Shown here in pieces: positions 46,609 to 62,275 of a stretch of DNA of 64,000 bases. The translations under genes and the position numbers were made by a program. This DNA is from an uncultured Lachnospiraceae bacterium. GTDB taxonomy: Bacteria > Bacillota > Clostridia > Lachnospirales > Lachnospiraceae. Under the pieces are notes generated by a model. The model was given only the letters and a program-made list of their open reading frames with translations, ran no database searches and was not told the DNA's origin. The stretch is taken from the NCBI GenBank assembly GCA_947626915.1, contig CANQUA010000006.1:1-64000 (forward strand). Reading direction: 5' to 3'. The number at the start of each line of letters is the position of its first letter. Position 1 is the stretch's first letter.

Positions 46609-46637
46609 ATTATACTGCCGGAATGGTGTAATGTCAA
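46609..46637 (-). promoter_or_regulatory. Consensus promoter of the EFR1 gene
   Basis: TTGACA (46632-46637), 17-base spacer, TATAAT (46609-46614). Confidence 0.9.
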
Positions 46638-46645
46638 CCTTTACA
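46627..46645. promoter_or_regulatory. Putative Rrf2 operator 2
   Basis: TGTAA-N9-TTACA, same arms and spacing as operator 1. It covers the -35 box of the EFR1 promoter and the -35 of the Rrf2 promoter. Confidence 0.6.
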
Positions 46646-46668
46646 ACAGGACAGAATTTTGATAAAAT
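46640..46668 (+). promoter_or_regulatory. Promoter of the Rrf2 gene
   Basis: TTTACA (46640-46645), 17-base spacer, TAAAAT (46663-46668). Its -35 is the right arm of operator 2. Confidence 0.7.
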
Positions 46669-46690
46669 AACGGCGGGAGGACAGACGCTT

Positions 46691-47131
46691 ATGCAGATCA
46701 GTAAAAAATGTTCCATCGCCATCCATTGCCTGGTATTTATAAATGAGTACGGACGGCAGAGAAAAGTCACCAGCGAACTACTGTCGCTGTCAACCGGATG
46801 CAACCCGGTAATCATCCGCAATATCCTGAGTTCCCTGAAAAAAGCAGGCATCGTTGCGGTCCCGCCCGGGACGGGCGGCGCTACCATAGAACCGCCCCTG
46901 GAGGAGATTTCATTATACCAGATATGTCGGGCGGTGGAGCCGGACGCCATCAGCAAGCTGATCGGGATACATTCTTCCGCCTCTTTGCTCTGTCCGGTCG
47001 GAAGAAACATCGGCCGCGTCCTCGGAAACGCCTACCAGACAGTCCAGGAGGATCTGGCCGACAGTCTGAAGCGCATTTCTCTGCAGAATATAGTCGACGA
47101 ATACCATGCAGTCCTTGCTCAGGCGGAGTGA
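46691..47131 (+). CDS. Rrf2-family transcriptional regulator (YwnA-like)
   Basis: Start at ATG 46691 (MQISKKCSIAIHCLVFINEY) with GGGAGG upstream; 146 aa. The winged helix-turn-helix is clear (VTSELLSLSTGCNPVIIRNILSSLKKAGIV). The region that carries three cluster-binding cysteines in IscR/NsrR has only one here (SASLLCPVGRNIG), as in YwnA-type members, so sensing by an Fe-S cluster is doubtful; thiol or ligand sensing is possible. Likely represses itself and the divergent EFR1 gene through the TGTAA-N9-TTACA sites. Its last 13 bases overlap the end of the convergent GH43 gene. Confidence 0.9.
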   Translation: MQISKKCSIAIHCLVFINEYGRQRKVTSELLSLSTGCNPVIIRNILSSLKKAGIVAVPPGTGGATIEPPLEEISLYQICRAVEPDAISKLIGIHSSASLLCPVGRNIGRVLGNAYQTVQEDLADSLKRISLQNIVDEYHAVLAQAE

Positions 47132-48159
47132 ACCTTTTCCGTAAGCACTCCGGTGCGCAGCTCCATCCTCTCCCGCGCCTCTTTTTCTCCGCAGGACGGC
47201 GTCGGCTGCAGGCCGGTGGTCGGTCCCTGAATAAAAAGCTTCCCGTCCTCCGTAAACCCGGCCCGGTCCAGATTGGGACGTCTGGCCGCCGACGGATTGA
47301 GCGGATCGCAATGGGAATGATACATCGCCCAAAGCTCCGTCCCGTCCGGCGATACCGTAAAGCTGTGGTGCCCCGGCCCCGAAACATCCCCGCGTTTTCT
47401 GCCGGTCTCAAAATTCACAGACGCAAGGATCGGATTCTCCTCCGCTTTCACAAACGGCCCCAGCGGTCCATCCGCCGCCGCATATCCGACTGCGTAAGCC
47501 GGACCCGCATAAAAATTGGCGGAATAACTCAGATAATACCGCCCGCGATATTTAAGCATTTCCGGTCCCTCGTTCCAAAGCGGCTCCCCCGACGTCAGCT
47601 CCCAGTCCTGCCGCGGCGTCAGCAGCTTCACCGGCTCCCCAACCGTCTCCGTCAGATCGTCGCTCAGCCGGATCCCATAGATCTCGCTGGTTTTCTTTCC
47701 ATCCGCTGTATTTTCCGAACAATCCCTGGAATAATACAAATACTTCTTCCCGTCCTCGTCTGCCAGCACATTGGCATCAATGGCCGCGTACCCAAAATCA
47801 AACAGCGGGGCATTTTTGATGTTTTTAAACGGTCCTGCCGGGTGCTTTGACACAGCCAGCCCGATGCGCAGGCTCCCCGCGCGGTTCCTCGCGGAATAAA
47901 ACATGTAATACCGGTCCTCATATTCCACGACCTCCGGCGCCCAGAACGTCTTTCCCGCGCCGCACCAGTCGCTTTCCCGCGCCAGAAAGCAGACCGTCCG
48001 GTCTTCCCAATGCACCAGGTCCTCTGATCTCCAGCAATCGTAGCCGTCCTTTCCCGTGGTACCGTAAAGATAATACATGCCTGTCTTCGTCTTCAGTACG
48101 AACGGATCCGCGACAGACAGTTCCTTCAACTCTTCATTGGAAAAAAAATAATCCTTCAT
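47119..48159 (-). CDS. Cytosolic GH43-family glycosidase
   Basis: Start at ATG 48159 (MKDYFFSNEELKELSVADPF); 346 aa, no signal peptide. Five-bladed beta-propeller with the GH43 catalytic acids recognisable: ADPF Asp (base), AIDANVL Asp (modulator) and LWNEGPEM Glu (acid). GH43 enzymes usually remove arabinose or xylose; specificity is not readable. About 60 percent identical by eye to the secreted lipoprotein two genes upstream, so the pair may act on polymer outside and oligomer inside. Last gene of the leftward catabolic locus. Confidence 0.9.
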   Translation of the reverse strand: MKDYFFSNEELKELSVADPFVLKTKTGMYYLYGTTGKDGYDCWRSEDLVHWEDRTVCFLARESDWCGAGKTFWAPEVVEYEDRYYMFYSARNRAGSLRIGLAVSKHPAGPFKNIKNAPLFDFGYAAIDANVLADEDGKKYLYYSRDCSENTADGKKTSEIYGIRLSDDLTETVGEPVKLLTPRQDWELTSGEPLWNEGPEMLKYRGRYYLSYSANFYAGPAYAVGYAAADGPLGPFVKAEENPILASVNFETGRKRGDVSGPGHHSFTVSPDGTELWAMYHSHCDPLNPSAARRPNLDRAGFTEDGKLFIQGPTTGLQPTPSCGEKEARERMELRTGVLTEKVHSA

Positions 48160-48239
48160 GTGATTTTGTTCCCCTTTTGTAAATGAATCTGCCATTCCGC
48201 GGCAGACGCTTTGCCGTCTTCTTCCGCGTACAATCCCGG

Positions 48240-49505
48240 TCATTCCAGATGGAGCCGCACGCCGGACCGCGCCAGCCCCTGCTGCAGCCTTTCGACAGAC
48301 AGCTCCGCAAGGCCGGTCTTCCCCTTTACGCAGAATGCCGCGGCCATTCCCGCCGCCTGCCCGGTCGCCGCGGCCGCAGGAATGACTCTTACCACATCCC
48401 AGGCCCATCCCGCCGCCGATACGGTGCGGCCGGCCGTTATCATATTTGAATATTCCCGGCAATACAGGATCCTGAGCGGAAGCTCATAGCAGCGGCCGCT
48501 GTGCAGGAAATCGCCCGTCACCCCGACGGAATCCTCAAAATGCCTTCCGCAATCTTCTTCCGTCAGCGTATACATTCCCTCCAGCCGGCACACCTTCCGC
48601 AGCTGAGGCATGGAAGGAGCCGCGCATATATCCCTTTCCAGGCGCGGCGTCGCCTGCAGATACGCAAAAAGCAGTTTTCGTCCGGCCATCATAAACGCCG
48701 TGATTTCCTCGGCGCTGCTTCCGCACAGCAGCGGAAAATCTTCCGGCTGTCCTTTTCCCTGCATACCCGCTCCCAGACAGAGCCAGCGACTGTATTTCTG
48801 TATCCGTCCGCTGTCCGCCGCCTGCCTGCAGCCCGCGCCGTCCGTAAGATGCGCCACATAGGAAAGATAATTCTCTCCGTTCTCAAAGGGCGCCCCCGCG
48901 CCGCGCATCACCTGCAGATCTCCCACCGCGTCCACCACGAATCCGGTCTTATAGAAGCCGCGCCCGGTCTTATTCTCCACGATTACCCCTTCGCAGCTTT
49001 GCCCGTTCCTGACCGTCCTGACCACCTGCGTGTCCAAAAGCAGCTCCACGCCGCTTTCCGCCGTCCAGCGGTCCAGCGCCGCCGAAAAAATTGCCGGCGA
49101 GAAAAACGTCCCGCAGCGTTCTTTTTTCGGGAACAGGACGGAATCTTCCGATTCGCCGCCGGCCTCTGCGGCCCGCTCCGCGATATCCGCCGGATCGGAC
49201 TGACTTTTCCAGCCCTCCGGCAGGGAATCATACCCATACCGGACCGCCAGGCGCAGCAGCTCCTCCGGCATCCCGTACATGAGTTTTTTCCCTTTGCCGT
49301 CACAGATCGGCTCAAACCAGTTGATCAGCCCCGCCGTCGCCAATCCGCCCAGCTGAACGCTTTTTTCGATCAGCAGTACCCTTACGCCGTTTCTTGCCGC
49401 GGATACCGCCGCGCAGACGCCGCTTATGCCGCCTCCGCAGACGATTACGTCATATTCCCCTCTGAGCGGCGTTTCAAGCCGCTCGTCAAGACAATATCCG
49501 TTCAT
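48240..49505 (-). CDS. FAD-dependent oxidoreductase (FAD_oxidored type)
   Basis: Start at ATG 49505 (MNGYCLDERLETPLRGEYDV) with GGAGGG upstream; 421 aa. Dinucleotide fold VIVCGGGISGVCAAVSAARNG, LIEKSVQLGGLATAGLINWF, GFVVDAVGDLQVMRGAG and a C-terminal FAD loop (SNMITAGRTVSAAGWAWDVVRVIP). Members of this family recur in gut-bacterial glycan loci with no proven reaction; oxidation of a sugar or cyclitol hydroxyl is a reasonable guess. It sits between two GH43 genes in the same orientation. Confidence 0.88.
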   Translation of the reverse strand: MNGYCLDERLETPLRGEYDVIVCGGGISGVCAAVSAARNGVRVLLIEKSVQLGGLATAGLINWFEPICDGKGKKLMYGMPEELLRLAVRYGYDSLPEGWKSQSDPADIAERAAEAGGESEDSVLFPKKERCGTFFSPAIFSAALDRWTAESGVELLLDTQVVRTVRNGQSCEGVIVENKTGRGFYKTGFVVDAVGDLQVMRGAGAPFENGENYLSYVAHLTDGAGCRQAADSGRIQKYSRWLCLGAGMQGKGQPEDFPLLCGSSAEEITAFMMAGRKLLFAYLQATPRLERDICAAPSMPQLRKVCRLEGMYTLTEEDCGRHFEDSVGVTGDFLHSGRCYELPLRILYCREYSNMITAGRTVSAAGWAWDVVRVIPAAAATGQAAGMAAAFCVKGKTGLAELSVERLQQGLARSGVRLHLE

Positions 49506-49570
49506 GTTTCCCTCCGATTTTCCGTAACCCCTCTGCCGTTTTTCCGGCTCCAGGGTCTCCCGGCTGTCCT

Positions 49571-50881
49571 CTATTCCTCTTTCCTCGACGGTACCGGCTG
49601 CGGCCCGGTAGTCGGGCCCGAAATATACAGTCTGCCATCCTCCGTGAACCCCGCCCGGTCCAGATTGAACCGCCGTCCGTTTTTGGGATTGGCCGGATCG
49701 ATATGCGAATGATAGGCCACCCACAGCTCCGTGCCGTCCGGCGACACGGTAAAACTGTGGTGTCCGGTCCCGGATACATCCTCACGGCTCTGTCCGTACG
49801 GCTCCGTCATGGATGTCAGGATCGGATTCTCCTGTGCTTTCACAAAAGGACCCAGCGGCGAATCCGCCACCGCATATCCCACGCCGTAAGCCGGACTGAC
49901 ATAGTAATTGGCGGAATAGCTCAGATAATATTTCCCGTCATATTTGATCATCTCCGGCCCCTCATTCCAGAGAGGATTGCCGGAAGCCAGTTCCCAGGGC
50001 TGTTCCGGCGTCAGCAGCTTCACCGGCTCTCCCTCGATCCCGGAAAAATCATCTTTCAGAACCGCTCCGTAAATTTCACTGGTTTTCTTCCCGTTCACCA
50101 CATTTTCGGAACAATCCCTCGAATAGTAAAGATATTTCGCTCCGTCGTCGTCGATCAGCACATTTGCGTCGATCACTGCGTAACCCGGATCAAACAGCGG
50201 TTCGTTTTTCAGATCCTGAAACAGTCCGTCCGGCCTGTCGCACACGGCGGCTCCGATGCGCAGACTGCCCTCACGGTTTTTGGAGGTATAAAACATATAA
50301 TAACTGTCCTCATATTCCACTACCTCCGGGGCCCAGAATGTCCCGCTCGCGCCGCACCATTCGCTGCCAAAGATCATAAAGCAGGTACGCCTGTCTGTCC
50401 AGTTCAGCAGGTCTTCCGATTTCATGCAGGAGAAGCCCTTGCCTCCTGTAGTACCATAAAGATAATACATGCCGTCCGACGCTTTCAGGACGAAGGGATC
50501 CGCAATCTTCAGGCTTTTAAACCGTTCATTGGAAAAATATCCTTCCGGCAGGATCTCCTCTGTCTCTTCCGTTTCCGTCCCGGTCCGGCCCGCAGTCTCC
50601 CCGTCCTCCAACGCAGACGTTTCCGTCTCAGTCTGGGAAGACGTCTCTCCTGTCTCCGGCCGGGACATCTCTTCCGTTTCCGCCTGGACCATGGTTTCCT
50701 CTGCGCCGGACCGCGTCGCGGCATCCTCCGCCGCATCCGCCATCGCTGCCGCATCCTCCGTAGGAGCGGCAGATTTCTCCGGTACTTCCGCGGAAATATT
50801 CGTCCTGCCGCATCCCGGCACTGCCGATACGCACAGCAAAACCATGATCCATACCGGCCATTTCCCTGTTCTTTTTTTCAT
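49571..50881 (-). CDS. Lipoprotein GH43 glycosidase
   Basis: 436 aa. Signal peptide with lipobox VPGC, then a ~90-residue Glu/Thr/Ala-rich linker (ETEEMSRPETGETSSQTETE) and a GH43 propeller with IADPFVL, VIDANVLIDDDG and LWNEGPEM carrying the three catalytic acids. The catalytic domain is a close paralogue of the cytosolic enzyme at 47119-48159. Expected to be tethered to the outer face of the membrane and to act before transport. It follows the 997-aa lipoprotein gene by 50 bases. Confidence 0.92.
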   Translation of the reverse strand: MKKRTGKWPVWIMVLLCVSAVPGCGRTNISAEVPEKSAAPTEDAAAMADAAEDAATRSGAEETMVQAETEEMSRPETGETSSQTETETSALEDGETAGRTGTETEETEEILPEGYFSNERFKSLKIADPFVLKASDGMYYLYGTTGGKGFSCMKSEDLLNWTDRRTCFMIFGSEWCGASGTFWAPEVVEYEDSYYMFYTSKNREGSLRIGAAVCDRPDGLFQDLKNEPLFDPGYAVIDANVLIDDDGAKYLYYSRDCSENVVNGKKTSEIYGAVLKDDFSGIEGEPVKLLTPEQPWELASGNPLWNEGPEMIKYDGKYYLSYSANYYVSPAYGVGYAVADSPLGPFVKAQENPILTSMTEPYGQSREDVSGTGHHSFTVSPDGTELWVAYHSHIDPANPKNGRRFNLDRAGFTEDGRLYISGPTTGPQPVPSRKEE

Positions 50882-50931
50882 ACTTTCTCCTTGCCGGACA
50901 GAACCGCCCCGTTTCCGGCCATCGCCGCCTG

Positions 50932-53925
50932 TCAGTTGGCTCCGTTTCCCGTTACATCGTCAAATCCTCTGACTTTTTCGCCGAGCGGCATGGGATTCAC
51001 CGGCATGGTAAACGTAGTGGAAAGCGGCGACGGATGCCCGTCTTCGCCGATATGCACGCCGCTCTCATCCACCGTATACGGTTCCACGAAATAATACCGT
51101 CCGCTCGACGTGTTCTTTCCCAGATAACCGTGATAAACGATATACCTGGTCTTTCCGTCCGGCGCATCCAGAAACCGCGGGATGCCGACGCCGCATACCT
51201 CGTCGCTTTTGGAAAAAATCGGCACAGGCGATTTTTCCCAGCTTTCCGCCGACAGGATATCGCCTCCCAGATAAGTCATCTGGCCCATCTTATATCCCGG
51301 CGTCCAATATCCGCTTCCGCAGTAAACCACAAACAATCTGCCGTCTTCGCTGACTACCGGCGCTATGCCTTCCACCACGGCAGGATACCATTTCTGCTGC
51401 GTCTCGGAATAGCCGTAGCCTTCACGTTCCCAGTCGTATTCCGGTGTGATCAGCTCCAGCGCCTTCCCCGCAGTCGTCCAGGGATTCTCCATCTCCGTCA
51501 AGTAGATCATCTGATGGAAATCAGCCGTTCCCCGTCCTGTTTCCCCGGTCAGAAAAGCATAGGCTTTCCCGTCGTAGTGCATGGTATTGATTCCGATAAG
51601 CGCTTCGCTCCCGTTATAGTCTTCATTTCCGATCACGAACGCTTCCGGTACGCCGAGTTCGCCCGTAACCGGATTGACCCAGTCCCCTTCTAAGTCATCC
51701 GAAGTGCATTTTAATACGTAAGTGCGGCGGCTCGGCCCGGTGATCGTACTGGTTTTGCCGTTGTCCATCGCACGGCTGAAGGTTGAAAAATATGCGTACC
51801 ATCCCGCGTACTCCGCGCCAAATTCCTCTTCTGCGTAGTAGGTAAGCTCAGAGGGCCAGGGACAATTGATCCTTCCTTCCATGGCGTCATACGCAGCCTG
51901 AGCGGTCCGGTCAAAAAATTCTTCCTCAACCGAATAAATCAGATCCGGCAAATTGGCCGCCTTATAGATTCCGAAGATATCTCCGGTGGGCGTTGGCAGA
52001 GAATAATACATCCCGCCGGCAAACGCCATATGCGGATCCGCTCCCACGCAGATCGGATTCTGCCAGGAAAACGTACCGTCCTCCTCGCGGCTCAGATCCG
52101 CATCACCCAGGACAGTCAGCCGGGACGCCGCGTTCCCGGGGAAGCGGCCGCTTCCTTCCAAATCTGTCAGATGCGAAAAATCGCCGCCGGAAACCGTAAC
52201 GTCAAAGCTGCCGTTCACCGTCGTTTCATACCGCGTGGCGGCCCGGATTTTTCCGTAAAACCGGCCGTCCTCGATATTTACGCGGATCCCGCCGTCAAAG
52301 GTTTCGCCCGCATACGAATCCAGACCATATACGCCTCCGTAGAAGCAGCCGCCTTTAATGGTCAGAACGCCTTCTCCCGTCTGGCTGCCCGATCCCATCG
52401 CGCATACCTTCCCATAAAAATCACCCCCGGTGATCGTCAGCGAAACGGACAGATCCGAAAAGTTTGCGGCAAAGCCCTCGGTAGGTGTGTTTGCGCCATA
52501 CACCTGATTCCATGTACCGCTCTCTACCGTCAGATCCGTGCCCGACAGTCCGGAAACGATTTTCGCGCCTCCGATCAGGGACGGGTACACCGCTGCTTCC
52601 GGCGCAAGGATACATTCCACCCCGTCGCCGATGCGCGCCCTGTGCCCGTTAAAGGAAATCCACGACGAATCGCTCTGCACATAGAGATTCAGCCTTTCAA
52701 GCGTGACCGGCGCCTCAAAAGAAAGCCCTTCCGAAATACAAAGCTCCGCGCCGTTGTTCCGGTAATCCGCCCCATCGAAGACAGAGGTCAGCGTATAGCT
52801 CCCCTCCGAAGCCGGCAGATTCGCGATCCTCGGCAGGCTCACCGGGCCGCAGAGAACAATCGTGCCGCCCTCCGGCAGCAGGGCATACGCCTCCTCCAGC
52901 CCGGCCGCAGCACTCTCAGGGGAAAACCCTCCGCCGCTTCCTCCATCGCATACGTATACCTCCGACTGTCTCCTGACCGTCGCAAATTTCTCCGCCAGCC
53001 GCAGGACAAGCGCCTCATCCGCCAGCGGCAGGGAAACCAGCTCCGAGGAACCGCAGTCCTGAATGGACAAATCTCCGATACTGCCGCCGCCAAGCATCAT
53101 CTGAAAACGGTCCGCCGCATCTTGCACCGTCATATCGCCGAGCGTTCCGCCGTTTATTTCCGCGGTCACCGTGTCTCCGCTGAGGGTAAGGGCTGCAACG
53201 CTCCCGCCGTCCAGCCGAATCCGGCTGCCAGATGCCGACGCAAAGTCCCCGCCCGCTACTGTCAGATTTCCGCCCTCGAGCGAAAGCGTACCGTCTGACA
53301 CGCACGACCGGGCAAATACCGCCTCATGCGTGCCGGCACATATTACCGCATGACCGCCCAGCGTAATCCGTTCAAAAGAGGCGTCGCCTCCCAGCGTAAA
53401 TTTCCCCTCCAGCGTCAGGCTGCCGCCGCGGTAGCGGACCGGTTCCGCGTGCACCGGTTCGGTAAAATCCGCCGCCGTGTATTCGCCGTCAATGATAATG
53501 TCCCCGCCGCCGTCCAGTTTTTCAAAAGCAGCTTCCAGACTGCCAAGTGGCTGGCCGCGGCTGCCGTCCCCGGTTCCGCCCGCCGCCACATATACCACGC
53601 CGGAGCGGACGGCCGGGTCGGATGCACCGGAAGTTCCGGAACCGGACGGGGATATTTCCGGTGTGCTTTCCGACGGCGCATCCGGCGCGGAAACAGACCC
53701 GTTTTCCGCCGTCCCGGCAGGCGTCCCGTTCCCCTCCGCGTCTTCCGTCCCGCTGTCCGCCTTTCCGGCAGAGCTTTCCGGGCCGGATGCCGATGTACCG
53801 GAAGCTTCCGTTTCCGGGCTGCCGGGATTTTTTCCGCACGCCGCCAGGAACACGGACAGCGCCAGCATCAGACAAAAAGCTGTCCTCATTTTCCTGCAGT
53901 GCCTTTTCTTCACTGTCTTCCCCAT
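50932..53925 (-). CDS. Large lipoprotein: beta-helix-like region plus GH43-like domain, 997 aa
   Basis: Start at ATG 53925 (MGKTVKKRHCRKMRTAFCLM), with AAAGGA eight bases upstream. Lipobox LAAC, then a Ser/Gly/Pro/Glu-rich linker of ~100 residues. Residues ~130-640 repeat short strands with Gly/Asp turns (GGSLTLEGKFTLGGDASFERITLGGHAVI, LEGGNLTVAGGDFAS), typical of a right-handed beta-helix. From ~650 a GH43-like propeller follows (NPICVGADPHMAFAGGMYYS … EGIAPVVSEDGRLFVVYCGSG). It could bind and cleave a surface polysaccharide. Five bases after the permease gene. Confidence 0.8.
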   Translation of the reverse strand: MGKTVKKRHCRKMRTAFCLMLALSVFLAACGKNPGSPETEASGTSASGPESSAGKADSGTEDAEGNGTPAGTAENGSVSAPDAPSESTPEISPSGSGTSGASDPAVRSGVVYVAAGGTGDGSRGQPLGSLEAAFEKLDGGGDIIIDGEYTAADFTEPVHAEPVRYRGGSLTLEGKFTLGGDASFERITLGGHAVICAGTHEAVFARSCVSDGTLSLEGGNLTVAGGDFASASGSRIRLDGGSVAALTLSGDTVTAEINGGTLGDMTVQDAADRFQMMLGGGSIGDLSIQDCGSSELVSLPLADEALVLRLAEKFATVRRQSEVYVCDGGSGGGFSPESAAAGLEEAYALLPEGGTIVLCGPVSLPRIANLPASEGSYTLTSVFDGADYRNNGAELCISEGLSFEAPVTLERLNLYVQSDSSWISFNGHRARIGDGVECILAPEAAVYPSLIGGAKIVSGLSGTDLTVESGTWNQVYGANTPTEGFAANFSDLSVSLTITGGDFYGKVCAMGSGSQTGEGVLTIKGGCFYGGVYGLDSYAGETFDGGIRVNIEDGRFYGKIRAATRYETTVNGSFDVTVSGGDFSHLTDLEGSGRFPGNAASRLTVLGDADLSREEDGTFSWQNPICVGADPHMAFAGGMYYSLPTPTGDIFGIYKAANLPDLIYSVEEEFFDRTAQAAYDAMEGRINCPWPSELTYYAEEEFGAEYAGWYAYFSTFSRAMDNGKTSTITGPSRRTYVLKCTSDDLEGDWVNPVTGELGVPEAFVIGNEDYNGSEALIGINTMHYDGKAYAFLTGETGRGTADFHQMIYLTEMENPWTTAGKALELITPEYDWEREGYGYSETQQKWYPAVVEGIAPVVSEDGRLFVVYCGSGYWTPGYKMGQMTYLGGDILSAESWEKSPVPIFSKSDEVCGVGIPRFLDAPDGKTRYIVYHGYLGKNTSSGRYYFVEPYTVDESGVHIGEDGHPSPLSTTFTMPVNPMPLGEKVRGFDDVTGNGAN

Positions 53926-53930
53926 CCTCT

Positions 53931-54839
53931 CTATCCTTTCAGCGAGCCCACAAACACGCCTCTCACAAAGTACTTCTGAATGAACGGATAAATACACAGA
54001 ATGGGTGCGGTCGCTACCACAATAACGCAGTATTTCACCAGTTCCCGGTAAGCTTCTACTTCGCTGAGTTCCGCGGATTCGACAACTGCCGTCTGAGAAC
54101 TACTGTTGCTAACCAATATCTCTCTCAGGAAAAGCTGAAGCGGATACATCTCTCGTTTATCCAGCAACACCATCGCATTAAACCAGGAATTCCAATGCCC
54201 TACCAGATAGTAAAGCAAAATAACCGCTAAAACTGGTTTTGAAAGCGGAAGAATCACTTCTTTCAGGATCGTAAATTGTGACCCGCCATCTATGATCGCA
54301 GCTTCTTCCAGATCCCGGGGAACCGACTGAAAGCCTGTTCTCAAAATAATCATATCCCAGGTACCGATCGCCCCCGGCAGGATCATTGCCCAGATGTTGT
54401 TATACAGCTTCAGCTGTCTCATCAGCAAATACCATGGTATCAGACCCCCTCCGAAAAACATGGTAACAATAATGACCATCATCAATACCTTTTTGAACAT
54501 CAGCCCCGAGCGCGACAATGTAAACGCGCCCATAATGGTCATAATCATGTTCAGCGCTGTTCCCAGGACCACATATATAAGTGTATTCCGGTAACCAATC
54601 AGAATGGAACTATCCTTAAAAGTAATCGCATAACCGCGCAAAGTAAAACCTAACGATTTAAATAGAAGCCCCTCATGCGCAATCAAACGTTCCGGATCAC
54701 TGAATGACGCAAATATAATATATAAAATGGGATATAAACACAACAACGTCAAAAAGCCAAGAACTGCATAGTTAATGATGCAGAATATAATATTGGATGG
54801 CGTCCATCTCCCGACACGTCGTATATTTTGTCCTCTCAT
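53931..54839 (-). CDS. Carbohydrate ABC transporter permease, LplC-like
   Basis: Start at ATG 54839 (MRGQNIRRVGRWTPSNIIFC) nine bases after AGGAGG; 302 aa. Six membrane segments, with the inner-membrane signature EEAAIIDGGSQFTILKEVILPLSKPV (EAA loop). The NTNTPG-free N-terminus and FASFSDPERLIAHEGLLF are typical of LplC/YtcP permeases that pair with LplB-type partners for oligosaccharide import. The ATPase is not in the window; such systems often share an MsmK-type ATPase. Thirteen bases after the other permease gene. Confidence 0.93.
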   Translation of the reverse strand: MRGQNIRRVGRWTPSNIIFCIINYAVLGFLTLLCLYPILYIIFASFSDPERLIAHEGLLFKSLGFTLRGYAITFKDSSILIGYRNTLIYVVLGTALNMIMTIMGAFTLSRSGLMFKKVLMMVIIVTMFFGGGLIPWYLLMRQLKLYNNIWAMILPGAIGTWDMIILRTGFQSVPRDLEEAAIIDGGSQFTILKEVILPLSKPVLAVILLYYLVGHWNSWFNAMVLLDKREMYPLQLFLREILVSNSSSQTAVVESAELSEVEAYRELVKYCVIVVATAPILCIYPFIQKYFVRGVFVGSLKG

Positions 54840-54852
54840 TATGTGTACCTCC

Positions 54853-55809
54853 TCAGAATAAGCTCGTCTCGGTAAGTTTCTTTGAAACTTTATTAGAGAT
54901 ATACAGCAGAACAAAATTAATTACGGCACTGGACAGACCCACAGCCGCCGAAAAACTGTAGTTTCCCTGCTGGAGTCCCCGCCGGTAAACATAAGTGGCG
55001 ATCGTATCGGCGGTTTCATACGTCATCGAATTGTATAAAAGAATCGCCTTCTGATAACCGGACGACAGCAGTCCGCCCAAATCCCGGATCAGCAGGATCA
55101 TGATCGTAGGCAGAATCGACGGAATTGTAATATGCCACATTTTCACCAGACGGCCTCCGCCGTCAATCTCTGCCGCTTCATACAGCTGCGGATCCACGGA
55201 AGCCATGGCCGACAGATAGATGATGGAGCCCCATCCTATGCCCTGCCAGATTCCTGATAAAACATAAATGGGCCGGTACATACTCGCATAATTCAAAAGC
55301 GAACTGTGTTCTGTTCCCGTGAAGAAATTTACAATCTGGTTTATAGGACCGCCGGAAGCAACAAACAGACGGATGATGCCGCAGGCCACCACCAACGAAA
55401 CAAAATGCGGCATGTACGTGATCGTCTGCACGGTTCGCTTAAAAGCTGCGTTCCTCACTTCGTTCATCAGAAGCGCCAGGATGATGGGGGCCGGAAAGCC
55501 CAGAACCAAACTCCAGAGATTCAGCATCAGAGTGTTCTTTACAAGCCGGAACAAATAAGGATTGCTGAAAAAATCCACGAAATTTTTAAGACCCACCCAT
55601 TTGCTCCGTGCAAATCCCAGAAGCGGCTTGAAATCCTTGAACGCAATCAATACTCCATACATCGGAAGATAATGAAAGACAATGTACCATATAAGTACCG
55701 GAATAAATACAAAATAAGCAAACCAATTTCTCCTTAGATCTTTCTTAACCCTTGTCCAAAAAGGCTGCTGATACTCCAACAGGACTGTCTGTTTTTTCTT
55801 TTTACTCAA
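54853..55809 (-). CDS. Carbohydrate ABC transporter permease, LplB-like
   Basis: The track begins at ATG 55830, but that codon lies in a strong hairpin with no SD. A TTG at 55809 has GGAG at good spacing (start SKKKKQTVLLEYQQPFWTRV), giving 318 aa. Six membrane segments; LplB features are FHYLPMYGVLIAFKDFKPLLG, LMNEVRNAAFKRTVQTITYMPHFVS and EAAEIDGGGRLVKMWHITIPSILP. It pairs with the downstream permease and the upstream binding protein. Confidence 0.92.
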   Translation of the reverse strand: MSKKKKQTVLLEYQQPFWTRVKKDLRRNWFAYFVFIPVLIWYIVFHYLPMYGVLIAFKDFKPLLGFARSKWVGLKNFVDFFSNPYLFRLVKNTLMLNLWSLVLGFPAPIILALLMNEVRNAAFKRTVQTITYMPHFVSLVVACGIIRLFVASGGPINQIVNFFTGTEHSSLLNYASMYRPIYVLSGIWQGIGWGSIIYLSAMASVDPQLYEAAEIDGGGRLVKMWHITIPSILPTIMILLIRDLGGLLSSGYQKAILLYNSMTYETADTIATYVYRRGLQQGNYSFSAAVGLSSAVINFVLLYISNKVSKKLTETSLF

Positions 55810-55824
55810 CCTGTTCTCCTTTCC

Positions 55825-55861
55825 GCCCATATGCAGAATTCAGAAAGCTCTGCATATGGGC
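55825..55861. promoter_or_regulatory. 13-bp stem-loop between binding-protein and permease genes
   Basis: GCCCATATGCAGA and TCTGCATATGGGC, perfect stem, 11-base loop, no T-run. Likely an mRNA processing or stabilising hairpin that sets the binding protein above the permeases. Confidence 0.7.
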
Positions 55862-55895
55862 GAGTCGCAAATATAAAGCCTAATGAAACAGCTGC

Positions 55896-57716
55896 TTATC
55901 TTGTCAGGAATCTGTCATATGCAGCCTGATATACGGCCACGTATTGATCAACTCCCATTTCCTTAACCGTCTGACGATACTCTTCCGCAGCTGAAACCGG
56001 AAGCTGCCCCATAATAATCTTCATCAAATACTCGCTTTTTGCCGTCTTGATGTTATTCGAAATATCCACAATTGACGCAGACTCTTCAGGTGTCAGAGAA
56101 ACCGGCGGCAATCCCACCCGTTTGCTGTCCCATGTCCAGTCGCCCAGGATTTCATACAGCTGAGGATTTTTGGTCCCTGTCGGGCTGCTGTCTACCTCCC
56201 AATACGCGCCCGTAAACCAGTGCAGCCTGTACTTTGACAAAGAATAGTTTCCACCGTTTTGCACAATCTCCTCATCTGTATACACCAGACTATCATCCGG
56301 ATAATACGGCTTTCCATTCTCATCGATCAGATGTATATCCCCATAGGAACCCAAACCATAAAGCTCCCAGCCTTTTTTGGAATAGCCGAAATCCAAAAAT
56401 GCCAGCGCTGCTTCGATATTATCGCACTGTGTTGTAATGGATGTATAAGTGCCCGTAGACACCCAGTTCGGATAATAGTCAACTGCCGTCTGATCTCCTT
56501 TATTCAACACGGGATAAGGAGCGGCAATGACATCTTTGCCAATCTCGCCTTTCACTGCCTTTGCAATCGTAGACGGTGAATTATGAATAACCGCGCTTCC
56601 GTCTGCAGAGGTTATCAAAGAGGTTCTGTGCGTTGAATCGCCGGTTGCAAAATCCTGATCGATCAGCCCTTCTTTATACCATTGGCTCATCGTCTCCAGG
56701 TAGCCTTCCAACCCCTCCTGTATCGGGCCATACGCTATTTTGTTGTTATCGTCTACAAAAAGGCCGCTGTAAACACCGTAGGCGCTTGCAAAGCAAGAAA
56801 AACCATTGCTGATAAAACCATCTGAACAGGCAAACGTAAGAGGCGCGCTGTAGCCGGCATTTTTACAATCTGTCAGGAAGTCATGCCACTCGTCAATCGT
56901 TTCAGGGACTTCTGTCCATCCGGTCCTTTCCATTGCCTCCTCTCTAATGCATAAGCCATAAGGAACTCCTGCAACTCCCGTATTCAGTACACTGATCGCC
57001 AGCCGCTGGTGCTCGTCGTTTACCGATTCAACCTTCATGGCCTCGCTGTTAGCACTGTCATTAAGAAATTTCATGTAATTCGGCAGATACTGCTCATACT
57101 CTGCCAGGTCTATGATCAAACCATCCTCGTAGGCCGCAGGCAGCCCTCCCGTGTAATAAGTATTATACCTCATGATAATATCCGGCAGCTCGCCGCCGCT
57201 GATCATGAGATTAAATTCTGTTGCTTCTTCACCCACTGTAGGCGTGATGAAATTCAGCTTGATCCCCGTCAGCTCTGATACCTGCTTAAATACAGGATGC
57301 TGGCTTAAATCCGGATAAATGTCAGCTGTACCATACAAACTTGGCATCCAGATGTCCAGCGTCACCCCGTCGAATCGTCCGTCGTAAGCCGAATAATCGC
57401 TCCCCAGCCCATAAAAGTCCCCAAGATACGAATCGTCCAGCGTCGTGTTTACCAGGGCGATCTCCTCCGCTGACGGATTTGTATTGCCGCGGATACGGGC
57501 AGCCAGATCGGATTCCGCCGCCTGTGTCTCTTCGGATGCAGCCGTCCCCGCAGCAGCCGTCGTGGCAGCCGCTGTCGTCGCAGCTGCGGTCGTCGCCGCT
57601 GTCGTCGCGGCTGTTGTAGAATTTCCGCCGCTGCCGCCGCACCCCCCCAGAAGAGAGGCGGCCAAAATCGCAGCCGCAGTTCCAGCCAGCCATTGTTTTC
57701 TCTGTTTCTTCATCAT
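55896..57716 (-). CDS. Extracellular solute-binding lipoprotein (LplA/YtcQ-like)
   Basis: Start at ATG 57716 (MMKKQRKQWLAGTAAAILAA), after AGGAGGAGG; 606 aa. Lipoprotein signal with LGGC, then a Thr/Ala low-complexity tether (STTAATTAATTAAATTAAAT). The two-lobed family 1 binding protein follows, of the large LplA type (~550 residues) that imports oligosaccharides (GVTLDIWMPSLYGTADIYPD; SADGSAVIHNSPSTIAKAVKG). Its gene precedes the two permeases, with a hairpin between. Confidence 0.92.
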   Translation of the reverse strand: MMKKQRKQWLAGTAAAILAASLLGGCGGSGGNSTTAATTAATTAAATTAAATTAAAGTAASEETQAAESDLAARIRGNTNPSAEEIALVNTTLDDSYLGDFYGLGSDYSAYDGRFDGVTLDIWMPSLYGTADIYPDLSQHPVFKQVSELTGIKLNFITPTVGEEATEFNLMISGGELPDIIMRYNTYYTGGLPAAYEDGLIIDLAEYEQYLPNYMKFLNDSANSEAMKVESVNDEHQRLAISVLNTGVAGVPYGLCIREEAMERTGWTEVPETIDEWHDFLTDCKNAGYSAPLTFACSDGFISNGFSCFASAYGVYSGLFVDDNNKIAYGPIQEGLEGYLETMSQWYKEGLIDQDFATGDSTHRTSLITSADGSAVIHNSPSTIAKAVKGEIGKDVIAAPYPVLNKGDQTAVDYYPNWVSTGTYTSITTQCDNIEAALAFLDFGYSKKGWELYGLGSYGDIHLIDENGKPYYPDDSLVYTDEEIVQNGGNYSLSKYRLHWFTGAYWEVDSSPTGTKNPQLYEILGDWTWDSKRVGLPPVSLTPEESASIVDISNNIKTAKSEYLMKIIMGQLPVSAAEEYRQTVKEMGVDQYVAVYQAAYDRFLTR

Positions 57717-57867
57717 TTTTCCTCCTCCTGAATAAAATAAATAGTTCCTGTATCTGATTCCCTGCGGGAAAATCATTCTGACATTCTTTTTTATATGCGG
57801 TCCTTATGCCCGCCGATGGACGGACCTGTTTACGCTGTTCCCGCGTCTCTGCCTGACCGGAAAACGA

Positions 57868-58857
57868 TTATGCAGCACCTACGCGCAAAACCACCTTGCC
57901 CACATTCTCCCCCCGTTTCAGGATCTCATGGGCCGCCTCCGCCTCCGTAATCGGCAGCACCCGATAGATGGTCGGACGTATCTCACCGCTCTCCACCTTC
58001 GGCCACACATCTTCAACCAGCTTCGCCAGAATCTGCGCTTTGACGGAAGGTGTGCGGGAACGCAGGGTACTCCCGATGATCCGGATATTTTTCACGTAAA
58101 TATTTTTCAAATCGATCTTTGTTTCCTGTCCGGCCAATGCCGCGATCATGATCCAACGGGCCCCGTACCTGACATAGGGAAGGCACCGGCCCATCATCTC
58201 TCCGCCCAGGCAGTCGATTGCCACATCCACAGGGCGGCCTTTTTCTTCTTCCGCCTTCAGAACCTCCGCGATATCTCTGGCGGAGGTATTGACAACCAGA
58301 TCCGCTTTCAGATGGCGGATGGACGCCGCGATCTCATCCGAGAGCACCGTCGTGATCACCCGTATGCCAAAGGCTTTCGCCATCGGAATGATCACGCTGG
58401 CCAGACCGCTGGCGCCGGCGTTCATCAGAAGCGTGTCCCCCGGCCGGATCCGCCCTTCCATAAATAAATTCAAATACGCCGTGGCAAAGGCTTCCGGCAT
58501 GGCCGCAGCCTCGATCATTGTACAGTTTCGGGGAACCGGCATCAACATATCGTACCGTACGTTCACGTACTGGGCATATCCGCCTCCTCCGAGCAGGGCG
58601 CAGACCTTATCCCCGATCTTCCAGCCGGATTCCGCAGGTACATCGTTTCCGATCTGTACGATGGTTCCGGCTATTTCCAGCCCCATCCATTCCGGACATC
58701 CGGGAGGCGGAGGATAATCGCCGTCCCTCTGCATCAGATCCGCCCGGTTAAGAGCCGCCGCTTCTATTTTTACCAGTACATCCTCCGCCCCGGTTACCGG
58801 GTCCGGCACCTCACTCCATAAAAGTTCTTTATTCTTTCCAATCAGTATTGCTTTCAC
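57868..58857 (-). CDS. MDR-family NAD(P)H:quinone oxidoreductase (PIG3-like)
   Basis: 329 aa. Medium-chain dehydrogenase fold without the structural or catalytic zinc cysteines: AAALNRADLMQRDGDYPPPPG, GDKVCALLGGGGYAQYV, the nucleotide site NAGASGLASVIIPMAKAFG and KKIDL-like KIDLKNIYVKNIRIIGSTLRSR. The PIG3/quinone-reductase branch reduces quinones or enones with NADPH. In this operon it may reduce an unsaturated intermediate made by the dehydratase-like enzyme upstream (inference). 36 bases after the dehydroquinase-like gene. Confidence 0.88.
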   Translation of the reverse strand: MKAILIGKNKELLWSEVPDPVTGAEDVLVKIEAAALNRADLMQRDGDYPPPPGCPEWMGLEIAGTIVQIGNDVPAESGWKIGDKVCALLGGGGYAQYVNVRYDMLMPVPRNCTMIEAAAMPEAFATAYLNLFMEGRIRPGDTLLMNAGASGLASVIIPMAKAFGIRVITTVLSDEIAASIRHLKADLVVNTSARDIAEVLKAEEEKGRPVDVAIDCLGGEMMGRCLPYVRYGARWIMIAALAGQETKIDLKNIYVKNIRIIGSTLRSRTPSVKAQILAKLVEDVWPKVESGEIRPTIYRVLPITEAEAAHEILKRGENVGKVVLRVGAA

Positions 58858-58893
58858 TTTTTTCCCCTTTTCCGGTTACCCTAAAACTTCCTC

Positions 58894-59664
58894 TCACGCC
58901 ATATGATCCCTCATAATTTTCAAAGCCTTAAGGTTCGGCTGTTCCTTGGAATCCCCCGGCCCGTAATGCTGCACGCAGAGATACATACAGACTCCCAGTT
59001 CCGGGCCGATCTGCCTCAGCAGCCGGCAGTATGGGCCATTCGCCAGAAGCAGATAATGGATATCCAGCTCCTGCTTCAGGCGATAGGCCATGTGCAGATT
59101 CTGCATCAGCTGCTCTTCCGTCTGGGCGTGATTGACGATTTTCGCAATATCCGCTCCCCTGGCCTGATGCTCTTTTGCGGTTGCAACCACCTGTTCCTCG
59201 TCAAAATAGGCGCGGATATGAGAGGACATCAGCACCTCTCCCCCGCTGTCATGAATCCTGGCGATCAGAGCCTTCTGCTTTTTCACTGCCTCCGGATCAT
59301 AAGTCATGTCGTGCGCGTCCTGATGATACAAATCTCCCATAACGTCGCAGAGCGCGGCCCCTGCTTCCAGCCCCATCAAAAGATATTCGACGCATTCTTC
59401 ATCCGTATAGCCTCTGCTGGCCATGCCGCGGTAGCTGGTGATGTAAATCGGCCGGTTATCGCAGTAGGAAAATATCTTTTTCAACGTATCCGGCGTTCTG
59501 TATTCACGCTTCAGATACTCCAGCTGGAAGCCAAACGCTTCCGCGCCGTCATAGAGAGAATTCATGATTAAATTAATGCATTCCTCCGGCGTTTCCCTCA
59601 GAATCATAGAGGTCAGAAGCGGTTTCTGATACGTGAGGAATGTCGGTTTCATGGCTGGTCTCAT
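58894..59664 (-). CDS. Type I 3-dehydroquinate dehydratase-like enzyme
   Basis: Start at ATG 59664 (MRPAMKPTFLTYQKPLLTSM) with GAGGGG upstream; 256 aa, TIM barrel. The residues expected of a type I dehydroquinase appear in order: Glu in GFQLEYLK, Arg in YITSYRGMASRG, His in LMSSHIRAYF, the Schiff-base Lys in ADIAKIVNHAQTEEQ and Arg in GPYCRLLRQIGPELG. Homology is distant, and the gene sits in a sugar-uptake operon rather than with shikimate genes, so it probably dehydrates a different keto-cyclitol or aldol-type substrate. Confidence 0.75.
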   Translation of the reverse strand: MRPAMKPTFLTYQKPLLTSMILRETPEECINLIMNSLYDGAEAFGFQLEYLKREYRTPDTLKKIFSYCDNRPIYITSYRGMASRGYTDEECVEYLLMGLEAGAALCDVMGDLYHQDAHDMTYDPEAVKKQKALIARIHDSGGEVLMSSHIRAYFDEEQVVATAKEHQARGADIAKIVNHAQTEEQLMQNLHMAYRLKQELDIHYLLLANGPYCRLLRQIGPELGVCMYLCVQHYGPGDSKEQPNLKALKIMRDHMA

Positions 59665-59718
59665 ACTTGATCCCCTCTTTCCGTTCATGTTCTGTCTCTG
59701 GCCAGCAAGTGCCCTCTG

Positions 59719-60441
59719 TCACATCTGTTTTCTGAGTCCGTCGATCTGGTAATTCTGCCCGGCGATATAGGAAGCGTCGTCGCTGGCCAGGAAACAAATC
59801 AGCTGTGCGCATTCCTCATACAGGCCGGAGCGTCCCATAAAGGATAGTCCCGGATTGGCCGTTTCTACCGCGTCGATGCTTCCCGGCGATACCGCGTTGA
59901 CATATACGCCACGGCCCGTTACTTCTTTCGCCAGCGCCTTGGTAAACGAAACAATCGCTCCTTTTGTCATGGAATAATCTACCATGTACGCCTTGCCGTA
60001 TACAGCCACAACGGAAGCCAGATTGACGATCTTCCCGTAACCGTTTTCCAGCATATGTCCCAGCACTGCCCGCGTAAAATAGAGCGTTCCCAGAATATTA
60101 ACGTCTATCTTTTTCTTCCAGGTGCTGCTCTGTGAATTCTCAAACAGGCCCCAGCCCTCCCGGAAAATTCCGGCGTTATTGATCAGGATTTCTACTTTTC
60201 CAAACCGGGCCACGGCGAACTCCGCCGCCTGCTTTACTCTCTCTTCATCGCTTACGTCACATTCAAATGTGAGAACTTTCGGCGAAAGTCCGCCCAGCGA
60301 TTCTTTCGCTTTTTCCAGCGCTTCGGCGTTGACGTCCGCCATCAATACTTCCGCCCCGTTTTCCGCCAGAAGCCTGACCGTCGCCAGGCCGATCCCTCTC
60401 GCCGCTCCGGTTACAATCGCATGTTTTCCCGTAAAATCCAT
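59719..60441 (-). CDS. Short-chain dehydrogenase/reductase
   Basis: 240 aa. Classical SDR: TGAARGIGLATVRLLAENG cofactor loop with Asp after strand 2 (LMADVNAEAL, suggesting NAD), LINNAGIF, catalytic Ser in NLASVVAVYG, YSMTKG with Tyr and Lys, and a C-terminal CFLASDDASYIAGQNYQIDG. Interconverts an alcohol and ketone; in context it may oxidise a ring or sugar hydroxyl to give the ketone needed by the dehydroquinase-like enzyme next door (inference). Confidence 0.93.
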   Translation of the reverse strand: MDFTGKHAIVTGAARGIGLATVRLLAENGAEVLMADVNAEALEKAKESLGGLSPKVLTFECDVSDEERVKQAAEFAVARFGKVEILINNAGIFREGWGLFENSQSSTWKKKIDVNILGTLYFTRAVLGHMLENGYGKIVNLASVVAVYGKAYMVDYSMTKGAIVSFTKALAKEVTGRGVYVNAVSPGSIDAVETANPGLSFMGRSGLYEECAQLICFLASDDASYIAGQNYQIDGLRKQM

Positions 60442-60556
60442 ATCCGTCGTCCTCCTTCGTTTTCACCAAATATCGAATATCCTGCCTGTTCGGGCATCCC
60501 TCCGCCGTTTCGTTTTCGCCGCCGCGGTTCCGTTCCCGGCTGCCGCAGGCGCCGGC

Positions 60557-61225
60557 CTAAAGAATCCTGAGTACCCCATTCCTCCCCGGCAGCACCTCCG
60601 GGTCATGGCAGAGCAGCACCTCGTACTTCGCATCGCGGTACTTCCTGATAAATTCTTCGCTCTTTTCCGGGTCGCAGGACCTGCCGGTTGGGATCTGCTT
60701 TTCCAGGCAAGCTCTCAGATAGCACTCGTCCCCGGCGACGACGAAGGTTTTGTCCCCGGCTTCGATCTCGACGACGCAGGAACCTTTCGAATGTCCGCCG
60801 ATCCGCAGCATCCGGACGCCATCGTCCAGAACGCGCTCCCGCTCAAAACAGTCCGCCCTGAAATCATCCGGAATATAGCGTTTCCCTGCTTTCCATTCCT
60901 CTTCCTGAATATGTATAATCGCGTTTTTAAAGTATCTGACCGCTTCGATGTGGTCGTGATGGGCATGGGTAACCGCCACGTCGGTCACGTCCTCCGGAGC
61001 ATAGCCGCATTCCGCAAGCGGCAGAAGGGGACTACAGAAATTGCGCATGTCAAATCCCGGCATCGTCTCGCAGCCCGCGTCCGCCAGGATCACCCGGCTC
61101 CCCGTCTCGATCAGATAAATGATAAATGAAATATTTGCAGTTTTTTCCTTGCTTTCTCCGCGAAATACCCAGGAAAGCGGCAGCACGGATTCCGCATATT
61201 TCAGGGCTGTAATCCGGATTTTCAA
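60557..61225 (-). CDS. Metallo-beta-lactamase-fold hydrolase (lactonase-like)
   Basis: 222 aa. Metal motif VTHAHHDHIEA (HxHxDH), then GGHSKGSCVVEIEAG (His), VVAGDECYLRAC (Asp) and LLCHDPEVLPG (His). The set resembles N-acyl-homoserine lactonase/GumP-type enzymes, which open lactones; an ester or lactone substrate is likely. It is the first gene of the leftward catabolic operon and diverges from the AraC regulator, 234 bases away. SD AAAGGAGGAAG precedes the ATG. Confidence 0.88.
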   Translation of the reverse strand: MKIRITALKYAESVLPLSWVFRGESKEKTANISFIIYLIETGSRVILADAGCETMPGFDMRNFCSPLLPLAECGYAPEDVTDVAVTHAHHDHIEAVRYFKNAIIHIQEEEWKAGKRYIPDDFRADCFERERVLDDGVRMLRIGGHSKGSCVVEIEAGDKTFVVAGDECYLRACLEKQIPTGRSCDPEKSEEFIRKYRDAKYEVLLCHDPEVLPGRNGVLRIL

Positions 61226-61459
61226 AGCTTTGCTTCCTCCTTTCCGGCCTGTAATTTTCCGCCCGGAGCACTTGAAACCACAGGCAAATTATGCTATATT
61301 GGTAACAGAAATAATTGTGGCGCTAAAGTGGAATAATTTGGAAAGATTCATTCAGGAGCGCCAAAACATTTCTTTTTTCGTAATTTATTATACTCTTTCC
61401 ACGATTGCTTCGTACATATATAAAACAGCAAATAACATGTAAAAAAGGGGAAATCCATT

Positions 61460-62275
61460 ATGTCCATTTATCTTGATCTGGCGGCCCGCCATTCCATTGT
61501 TGCGGCAAACGCCCATTATTACAAAATTCCGACTGCTGAACGCTATATCGACCGCACGCTCCAGTTCCATGATTTCATCTATCTGATCGACGGAAACTGG
61601 GCGATCACGGAAAACGACCACGAATATGTACTGAACAGCGGGGACGTGCTCCTTCTGACCGCGGGCAATCACCATTACACCCGCCTCCCCTGTATGGCAG
61701 GGACGAAAACCTTCTGCATCCACGTCACCTGTCTGCCGGGAGACCGGCCCGGCTGTCCCACGAGCCTCAAGCTGCCGACCCTGATGCGCATGCAGGGGCG
61801 GCAGAACCCCAAATATTATTTTGAAGAGATCGTTTCCGTTTACTGGTCGTCGTCCTCCTACAAAACGGAACGTCTGTCCGCCCTCTGCGAACTTCTGATC
61901 CTGGAGCTGGCCAATGAACAATCCCAGCAGTCCTCCTCGCCGGATAATCTGATCCTGATCGCCAATTCGGCCATCGAGATTTTGACCGCTTCGCCCCACC
62001 GGCGCTTCCAGACCCAGGAGATGGCCCAGCTTTTGTTTATCAGTGAAAAGACGCTGAACAACGCCATGCGGAAAAAGACAGGCATGCCTTTCTACGCCTA
62101 CGAGAAAAACCTGAAGCTGGAAATGATCGCGCTCCAGCTGGAAATGGAACCGCTGATCAGCGTGCAGGAACTGGCGATCGCGTTCGGTTTCTGCGACCAG
62201 TTCCATCTGAGCAAAGCGTTTAAGCAAAAATACGGCATATCGCCGGCGCAGTTCCGCCAGGCAAAGCTCGCTTAA
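61460..62275 (+). CDS. AraC-family transcriptional regulator
   Basis: 271 aa. N-terminal cupin-like sensing domain (RTLQFHDFIYLIDGNWAITENDHEYVLNSGDVLLL), then a C-terminal pair of helix-turn-helices (FQTQEMAQLLFISEKTLNNAMRKKTG; ISVQELAIAFGFCDQFHLSKAFKQKYGISPAQFRQ). It is transcribed away from the 14-kb leftward locus and is the natural activator of it. No obvious -35 exists for the leftward promoter, as expected for an activator-dependent start. Ends at a strong hairpin. Confidence 0.92.
   Translation: MSIYLDLAARHSIVAANAHYYKIPTAERYIDRTLQFHDFIYLIDGNWAITENDHEYVLNSGDVLLLTAGNHHYTRLPCMAGTKTFCIHVTCLPGDRPGCPTSLKLPTLMRMQGRQNPKYYFEEIVSVYWSSSSYKTERLSALCELLILELANEQSQQSSSPDNLILIANSAIEILTASPHRRFQTQEMAQLLFISEKTLNNAMRKKTGMPFYAYEKNLKLEMIALQLEMEPLISVQELAIAFGFCDQFHLSKAFKQKYGISPAQFRQAKLA

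Follow-up and report, generated by a model that had tools for sequence, protein, structure and literature searches.

We examined a locus in a 64,000-nucleotide stretch of DNA (hereafter the window) from an uncultured Lachnospiraceae bacterium (contig CANQUA010000006.1, assembly GCA_947626915.1), in which eleven minus-strand genes run leftward from a single divergent AraC-family regulator gene (61460–62275, plus strand; PF12833 at 6e-16, and PF02311). Counted from the regulator, the eleven genes encode a hydrolase of metallo-beta-lactamase (MBL) fold, a short-chain dehydrogenase/reductase (SDR), a type I dehydroquinase-like protein (the lyase), a medium-chain dehydrogenase/reductase (MDR), a solute-binding protein, two permeases of the LplB and LplC types, a 997-residue lipoprotein, a lipoprotein of glycoside hydrolase (GH) family 43, a flavin adenine dinucleotide (FAD)-dependent oxidoreductase and a cytosolic GH43 enzyme. 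The core enzyme genes (MBL, SDR, lyase and MDR) form the promoter-proximal end of the run and adjoin the AraC gene. The gaps between the eleven genes, in the same order, are 115, 54, 36, 151, 65, 13, 5, 50, 65 and 80 bp, and the divergent intergenic region (61226–61459), which shows weak promoter-like matches only, is presumed to hold the operator and promoter for both transcripts. A scan by consensus matching, a crude method, found no strong promoter or terminator that would split the run, and we consider it likely from the sequence that the eleven genes form one transcript. This arrangement had been described in an earlier first-pass annotation of the same DNA and is confirmed here, with gaps of 5–151 bp; that annotation had named a split into unrelated transcripts as the case against itself, and the scan gave no clear sign of one. 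Most of the protein families it proposed are recovered by Pfam and NCBIfam profiles, but its residue-level description of the dehydroquinase-like protein is wrong in one detail.

The lyase (58894–59664) stands at the centre of this gene cassette. It matches PF01487 (DHquinase_I) with 40.5 bits against a cut-off of 22.2, and scores far below the cut-off of the NCBIfam aroD model TIGR01093 (23.5 bits vs 139). Its predicted structure, built from a 28-sequence alignment with a predicted local distance difference test (pLDDT) score of 95.2, has the fold of a type I dehydroquinase barrel; a Foldseek search of the PDB with this predicted model listed 50 matches, all of them dehydroquinases, the best with a template modelling (TM) score of about 0.8. 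In alignment, His143, Lys170, Arg213 and Gln236 of E. coli AroD correspond to H149, K175, R217 and Q242 of the lyase. These positions are kept in 36–39 of 40 relatives, the few exceptions at the His, Lys and Arg positions being gaps; for the Schiff-base lysine and the base histidine the figure is 38–39 of 40, with the remainder gaps in partial or broken open reading frames (ORFs). The first-pass annotation had counted a glutamate among the kept positions along with His, Lys and Arg; the last three do hold, but Glu86 of AroD aligns with S83, and Glu46 and Arg48 are replaced by G45 and Q47 (read by eye along an ungapped strand where the automatic alignment places gaps). At the Glu86 position the relatives mostly have N, D, S or Q, and many of them carry a Glu at a shifted position, which the window lyase does not have.

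We take Arg213 and Gln236 of AroD to hold the carboxylate of its substrate, and Glu46, Arg48 and Arg82 to hold the ring hydroxyls. Since the carboxylate-side residues are kept and the hydroxyl-side residues lost, the comparison suggests another carboxylated ketone as the substrate; that this substrate carries a carboxylate is suggested by the kept Arg and Gln positions. Structures of Glu86-mutant AroD (4GUF, 4GUG) are among the Foldseek matches to the lyase model, and Light et al. reportedly studied such mutants in 2013. Loss of dehydroquinase activity in a relative of this kind has precedent, because a dehydroquinase domain of one Aro1 protein is reported to have lost its activity through active-site substitutions (PMC9074039). 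A second, longer lyase subtype contains an insertion, has D/H where the window lyase has G/Q, and is linked to alcohol dehydrogenase (ADH), Gfo/Idh, amidohydrolase or KduI genes (loci L076, L078, L079, L080, L088, L089, L091, L029 and L062:17012-17896).

The lyase is the only PF01487 protein in its genome, and a type II dehydroquinase is encoded on another contig (5e-59), so the lyase is dispensable for shikimate synthesis. The separate type II enzyme and the replaced active-site residues, among them the ring-hydroxyl contacts, together with the low aroD score, rule it out as an enzyme of that pathway, as the first-pass annotation had implied. Compared with AroD itself, the lyase shares the fold and the Lys170, His143, Arg213 and Gln236 positions; it differs in being only 11–18% identical to solved examples, in having none of Glu86, Glu46 and Arg48, and in lying in an AraC-linked, catabolic-looking cluster. 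At one locus elsewhere (L118, G448:C22), a cassette-type MDR and an AraC gene lie near shikimate genes on the other strand, identified by eye as aroC-like, chorismate mutase-like, aroE-like and type II dehydroquinase-like; this is a single case.

The SDR (59719–60441; PF00106, 2.5e-54) has the motifs GAARGIG and YSMTK, and in several relatives an SDR 46–53% identical to it adjoins the dehydroquinase-like gene. The MDR (57868–58857) is a probable enone reductase of PIG3 type, scoring 348 bits against the curated cut-off of 297 for the PIG3/quinone reductase model TIGR02824; unlike that family at large, the cassette MDRs form a tight subgroup, mostly 66–79% identical, tied to the dehydroquinase-like cassette, and their substrate is probably a specific enone. 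The MBL-fold protein (60557–61225; PF00753, 8e-15), whose TTG start follows AGGAGG, is lactonase-like: it has AiiA-type metal-ligand motifs (HxHxDH at 87, GGH at 143, GDECY at 165 and CHD at 206, including the D-x-x-Y), and its best solved matches include acyl-homoserine lactone (AHL) lactonases and other lactonase-like enzymes. Its score against the NCBIfam AiiA model is 53.7, with a cut-off of 375, so it is not an AiiA orthologue.

How far do these genes travel together? A protein scan of genome contigs gave one lyase relative (L003), and a profile search of whole genomes proved far more sensitive. Across 391 genomes of the class, at a threshold of E <= 1e-12, this search finds the lyase in 27 genomes (about 7%), with up to four matches per genome. 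The weak matches L010-L023 were taken to be ordinary or distant PF01487 proteins and are not included. Two further genomes of the same phylum have it, clear relatives within the family are limited to about five other genomes, and a search of a viral collection for relatives found none. Neighbours were counted over 40 lyase loci, as minimum values because some contigs are short, and with L087 and L092 dropped because no ORF was called for the lyase there. An SDR is present in 27 loci, an MDR in 25, an AraC gene in 19 (mostly divergent), a Zn-ADH-like gene in 16, a Gfo/Idh gene in 15 and an epimerase-like gene in 13; less common are MBL (9), LplC (5), LplB (4), amidohydrolase (4), KduI (3) and GH43 (1, the window only). 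In the two additional genomes from elsewhere in the phylum, the gene order is again Gfo, epimerase-like, ADH, lyase, MDR, with an AraC gene alongside.

The link between lyase and MDR is also visible at the level of whole genomes. Of the 391 genomes, 34 have MDR orthologues, and 24 of these are shared with the 27 lyase genomes, compared with 2.3 expected (Fisher p 2.8e-27). That significance is inflated because the genomes share ancestry, but the adjacency of the two genes supports the link independently. The divergences of the two proteins correlate (Mantel r 0.55, with 2 of 5000 permutations as high, a significance again inflated by shared ancestry). Mean identity is 70% among the MDRs and 41% among the lyases, which suggests that the substrate of the MDR is the more uniform one. 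Because SDR, lyase, MDR and MBL recur without GH43 in distant Clostridia, often with AraC and further redox genes, and because lyase and MDR co-occur, we regard the enzyme core, with high confidence, as a conserved functional unit and the GH43 and importer part as a local attachment. The eleven genes, which the first-pass annotation treated as one unit, are not conserved as such: GH43 accompanies the core in 1 of 40 loci and importer permeases in 5 of 40. Several MDR cassettes have Gfo/Idh and/or Zn-ADH-like genes, and usually AraC, with no dehydroquinase-like gene nearby (L103, L104, L106, L110, L111, L112, L113, L119); in these, some other enzyme may stand in for the lyase.

The remaining genes of the run make up its glycan side. 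The importer consists of an LplA-type solute-binding lipoprotein (SBP_bac_1; 55896–57716, PF01547) and the LplB-type (54853–55830) and LplC-type (53931–54839) permeases, both BPD_transp_1 (PF00528). The 997-residue lipoprotein (50932–53925) has a lipobox and no Pfam match in the profile scan, and its last 356 residues, a GH43-like domain, match solved GH43 enzymes (3e-14); the GH43 lipoprotein beside it (49571–50881) is recognised directly by PF04616, so that the early description of two lipoproteins with GH43 domains stands. The FAD-dependent oxidoreductase (48240–49505; PF12831, FAD_oxidored, 2e-55) has a relative near two other cassettes (L086, L112). The cytosolic GH43 (47119–48159; PF04616, 9e-60) and the GH43 lipoprotein are both arabinofuranosidase-like, match PF04616 with 203 and 194 bits (1e-60 to 1e-57) and keep the catalytic Asp/Asp/Glu in the motifs ADPF, DANV and NEGPE. 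They are 70% identical and one stands on each side of the membrane; both probably cut the same linkage, one outside and the other inside the cell. The closest solved relative of the cytosolic enzyme is HoAraf43 (4QQS; 2e-87), which is active on p-nitrophenyl-alpha-L-arabinofuranoside and gave no degradation products from arabinofuranopentaose; its authors expected a natural substrate that contains arabinofuranose and is more complex than arabinan (PMC4356313). The window differs from HoAraf43 in pairing a lipoprotein copy with a cytosolic one. L-Arabinose itself is thought unlikely as the substrate of the cassette, an L-arabinose isomerase gene being present elsewhere in the genome.

Hints on the substrate come from the neighbours of related cassettes. 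At L029 an importer, the lyase, SDRs, an amidohydrolase, KduI (an equivalog match, 444 vs a cut-off of 250), a weakly GH88-like protein and the MDR form one same-strand run, and KduI is also found at L080 and L089. L104 combines LplBC, a solute-binding protein, MDR, Gfo and ADH with a gene resembling 2-keto-3-deoxygluconate (KDG) kinase. In the genome of the window itself, a second locus (L128, G000:C44:1-19000) holds paralogues of the GH43 lipoprotein (79%), the solute-binding protein (60%), LplB (69%) and LplC (66%) without the cassette; in its place are KDG-kinase-like and 2-keto-3-deoxy-6-phosphogluconate (KDPG) aldolase genes. An IolB-like gene lies in an operon adjacent to the cassette at L025, and GH2, GH3, GH16, GH29, GH30 and GH36 genes flank other cassettes and point to no single clear substrate. 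Taken together, these genes point weakly to catabolism of a uronate or sugar acid of KDG type rather than of a cyclitol, the first-pass proposal having been a sugar or cyclitol. Against this, many cassettes are surrounded by housekeeping genes.

We tentatively read the locus, in an interpretation that we would not yet call probable, as an AraC-controlled glycan-utilisation locus with a catabolic tail that oxidises, beta-eliminates, reduces and hydrolyses a carboxylated cyclic substrate. Outside the cell, the lipoprotein GH43 enzymes would cut back a plant glycan that bears arabinofuranose; the fragment would enter through the LplABC importer, and the cytosolic GH43 would complete the trimming. 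The SDR (or the FAD enzyme) would then oxidise a hydroxyl of the released core unit to a ketone; the lyase, forming a Schiff base through K175 and using H149 as base, would remove a hydroxyl (or alkoxyl) by beta-elimination, leaving an enone for the MDR to reduce; and the lactonase-like MBL would open a lactone or cyclic ketone. Neighbouring genes suggest that the substrate is a uronate or sugar acid and that it drains into a KDG-type lower pathway. The analysis shows the gene content, the operon-like spacing, the predicted fold, the kept Lys, His, Arg and Gln and the conservation and co-occurrence of the core, while the substrate and the order and direction of these steps are inferred. Such a route, which the first-pass annotation had proposed in outline, is made reasonable by the co-conservation of lyase, SDR, MDR and MBL, and the cassette probably breaks down a sugar acid or a ring-shaped polyol. 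That the substrate is of uronate type we consider doubtful. We have similar doubts about a more specific proposal, an anaerobic pathway not described before that would start from an oxidised uronic acid or similar sugar acid, such as a modified glucuronate from plant gums or from glucuronoarabinoxylan. In it, a dehydroquinase turned to a new use would remove a hydroxyl or alkoxyl group by beta-elimination, and an enone reductase dedicated to the route would reduce the product. Several observations weigh against the tentative reading: the loss of Glu86; ten genomes with the MDR and no lyase; several relatives in which the cassette sits among housekeeping genes with neither transporter nor glycosidase; the absence of KduI, KDG kinase and aldolase from the window cassette; the fact that, among the enzymes here, only the GH43s have a characterised close homologue acting on a known substrate; and the presence of MBL in only 9 of 40 lyase loci, by which hydrolysis may not be a core step and MBL may be accessory.

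Among the alternatives, an oxidative, non-hydrolytic deglycosylation fares best, and we think it unlikely. Here an SDR, Gfo or FAD enzyme would form a 3-keto-glycoside, the lyase would beta-eliminate at C1 and the MDR would process the enone sugar, a 3-keto principle known from puerarin C-deglycosylation (PMC10539306). The Gfo/Idh partners in relatives show sub-threshold matches to levoglucosan and glycoside 3-dehydrogenases, varied glycosidase genes (GH2, GH3, GH29, GH30, GH36) stand beside different cassettes, and the presence of several paralogues per genome would fit a varied substrate range. The window, however, has no Gfo/Idh enzyme, its kept Arg and Gln suggest a carboxylate, its GH43s already cut glycosidic bonds, and the 3-keto lyases known to us belong to a different family. 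The open-access literature searched on 3-keto glycosides and dehydroquinase-containing clusters gave nothing matching the cassette.

Less likely still is catabolism of a quinate- or shikimate-like hydroaromatic compound. Such a route would begin with an SDR or ADH that yields a ketone resembling 3-dehydroquinate; after dehydration by the lyase and reduction of the enone by the MDR, MBL would open the ring. The type I dehydroquinase fold with its Schiff-base Lys, His and carboxylate-side Arg213 and Gln236 fits this, and hydroxycyclohexanecarboxylate dehydrogenases are among the many enzymes that the SDRs match below cut-off. It sits poorly with the ring-hydroxyl side, where G45/Q47 stand in place of Glu46/Arg48 (the long subtype has D/H), with the loss of Glu86, and with the aroD score; a sugar importer and arabinofuranosidase-like genes would be unexpected, and no such gene cluster appears in the open-access literature searched. 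We find it improbable, too, that the window is an ordinary arabinan or arabinoxylan locus with the core as a chance neighbour for aldehyde or quinone detoxification. GH43, importer and AraC are a standard set, quinone reductase is a common annotation for PIG3 MDRs and the linkage of core to GH43 is found only in this genome among those examined; yet the core heads this run on its promoter side, beside AraC and with no clear internal terminator, and elsewhere it is kept with AraC genes of its own. Least probable is an oxidative pentose or hexose pathway (SDR as sugar 1-dehydrogenase, MBL as lactonase, then cleavage) in which the lyase would serve as a class I aldolase, or as a dehydratase, for a 2-keto-3-deoxy sugar acid. 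SDR and lactonase would be the first two steps, KDG-type genes lie near relatives and class I aldolases are barrels with a Schiff-base lysine; but the cassette has no sugar-acid dehydratase, its most conserved partner, the MDR, has no role in such pathways, and the best fold matches are all dehydroquinases.

Two further known systems can be set beside the locus. Pectin and uronate catabolism (KduI, KduD, KdgK and KDPG aldolase) has counterparts near some related cassettes, in the form of KduI, weakly GH88-like and KDG-kinase-like genes, and in the KDG-type genes beside the paralogous GH43/importer set; the window locus does not have these genes, and the known pathway offers no step for the lyase or the MDR. 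Myo-inositol catabolism (IolG/E/D/B/C/J) likewise proceeds by forming a ketone, dehydrating and then hydrolysing a ring, and has a counterpart in the IolB-like gene next to the L025 cassette, but uses enzymes of different families, and profile scans found no homologue of the IolE dehydratase or IolD hydrolase among the eleven window genes. Profiles and open-access literature, with subscription papers mostly outside the search, gave no described pathway matching the cassette or its dehydroquinase subfamily, which agrees with the first-pass expectation of a new catabolic substrate. The individual families are known. Annotation as dehydroquinase-like protein and quinone reductase would hide a recurrent, probably catabolic cassette; if the proposed dehydroquinase/enone reductase pathway is true, it would occur widely among Clostridia, and some genomes would have more than one copy. 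Assigning the substrate would reveal the use of a compound by these anaerobes that present annotation misses, and would give the type I dehydroquinase fold a catabolic branch.

Beyond the locus, a GH3 glycosidase gene (63267–63965) runs past the end of the window, and a gene that by eye resembles glycerophosphodiester phosphodiesterase lies beyond it (L030:1271-3406). On the other side, the gene for a ferredoxin-domain protein (45803–46561, minus strand) is divergent from that of an Rrf2 regulator (46631–47131, plus strand), and between them lies a perfect promoter-like match, TTGACA-17-TATAAT (46637–46609, minus strand).

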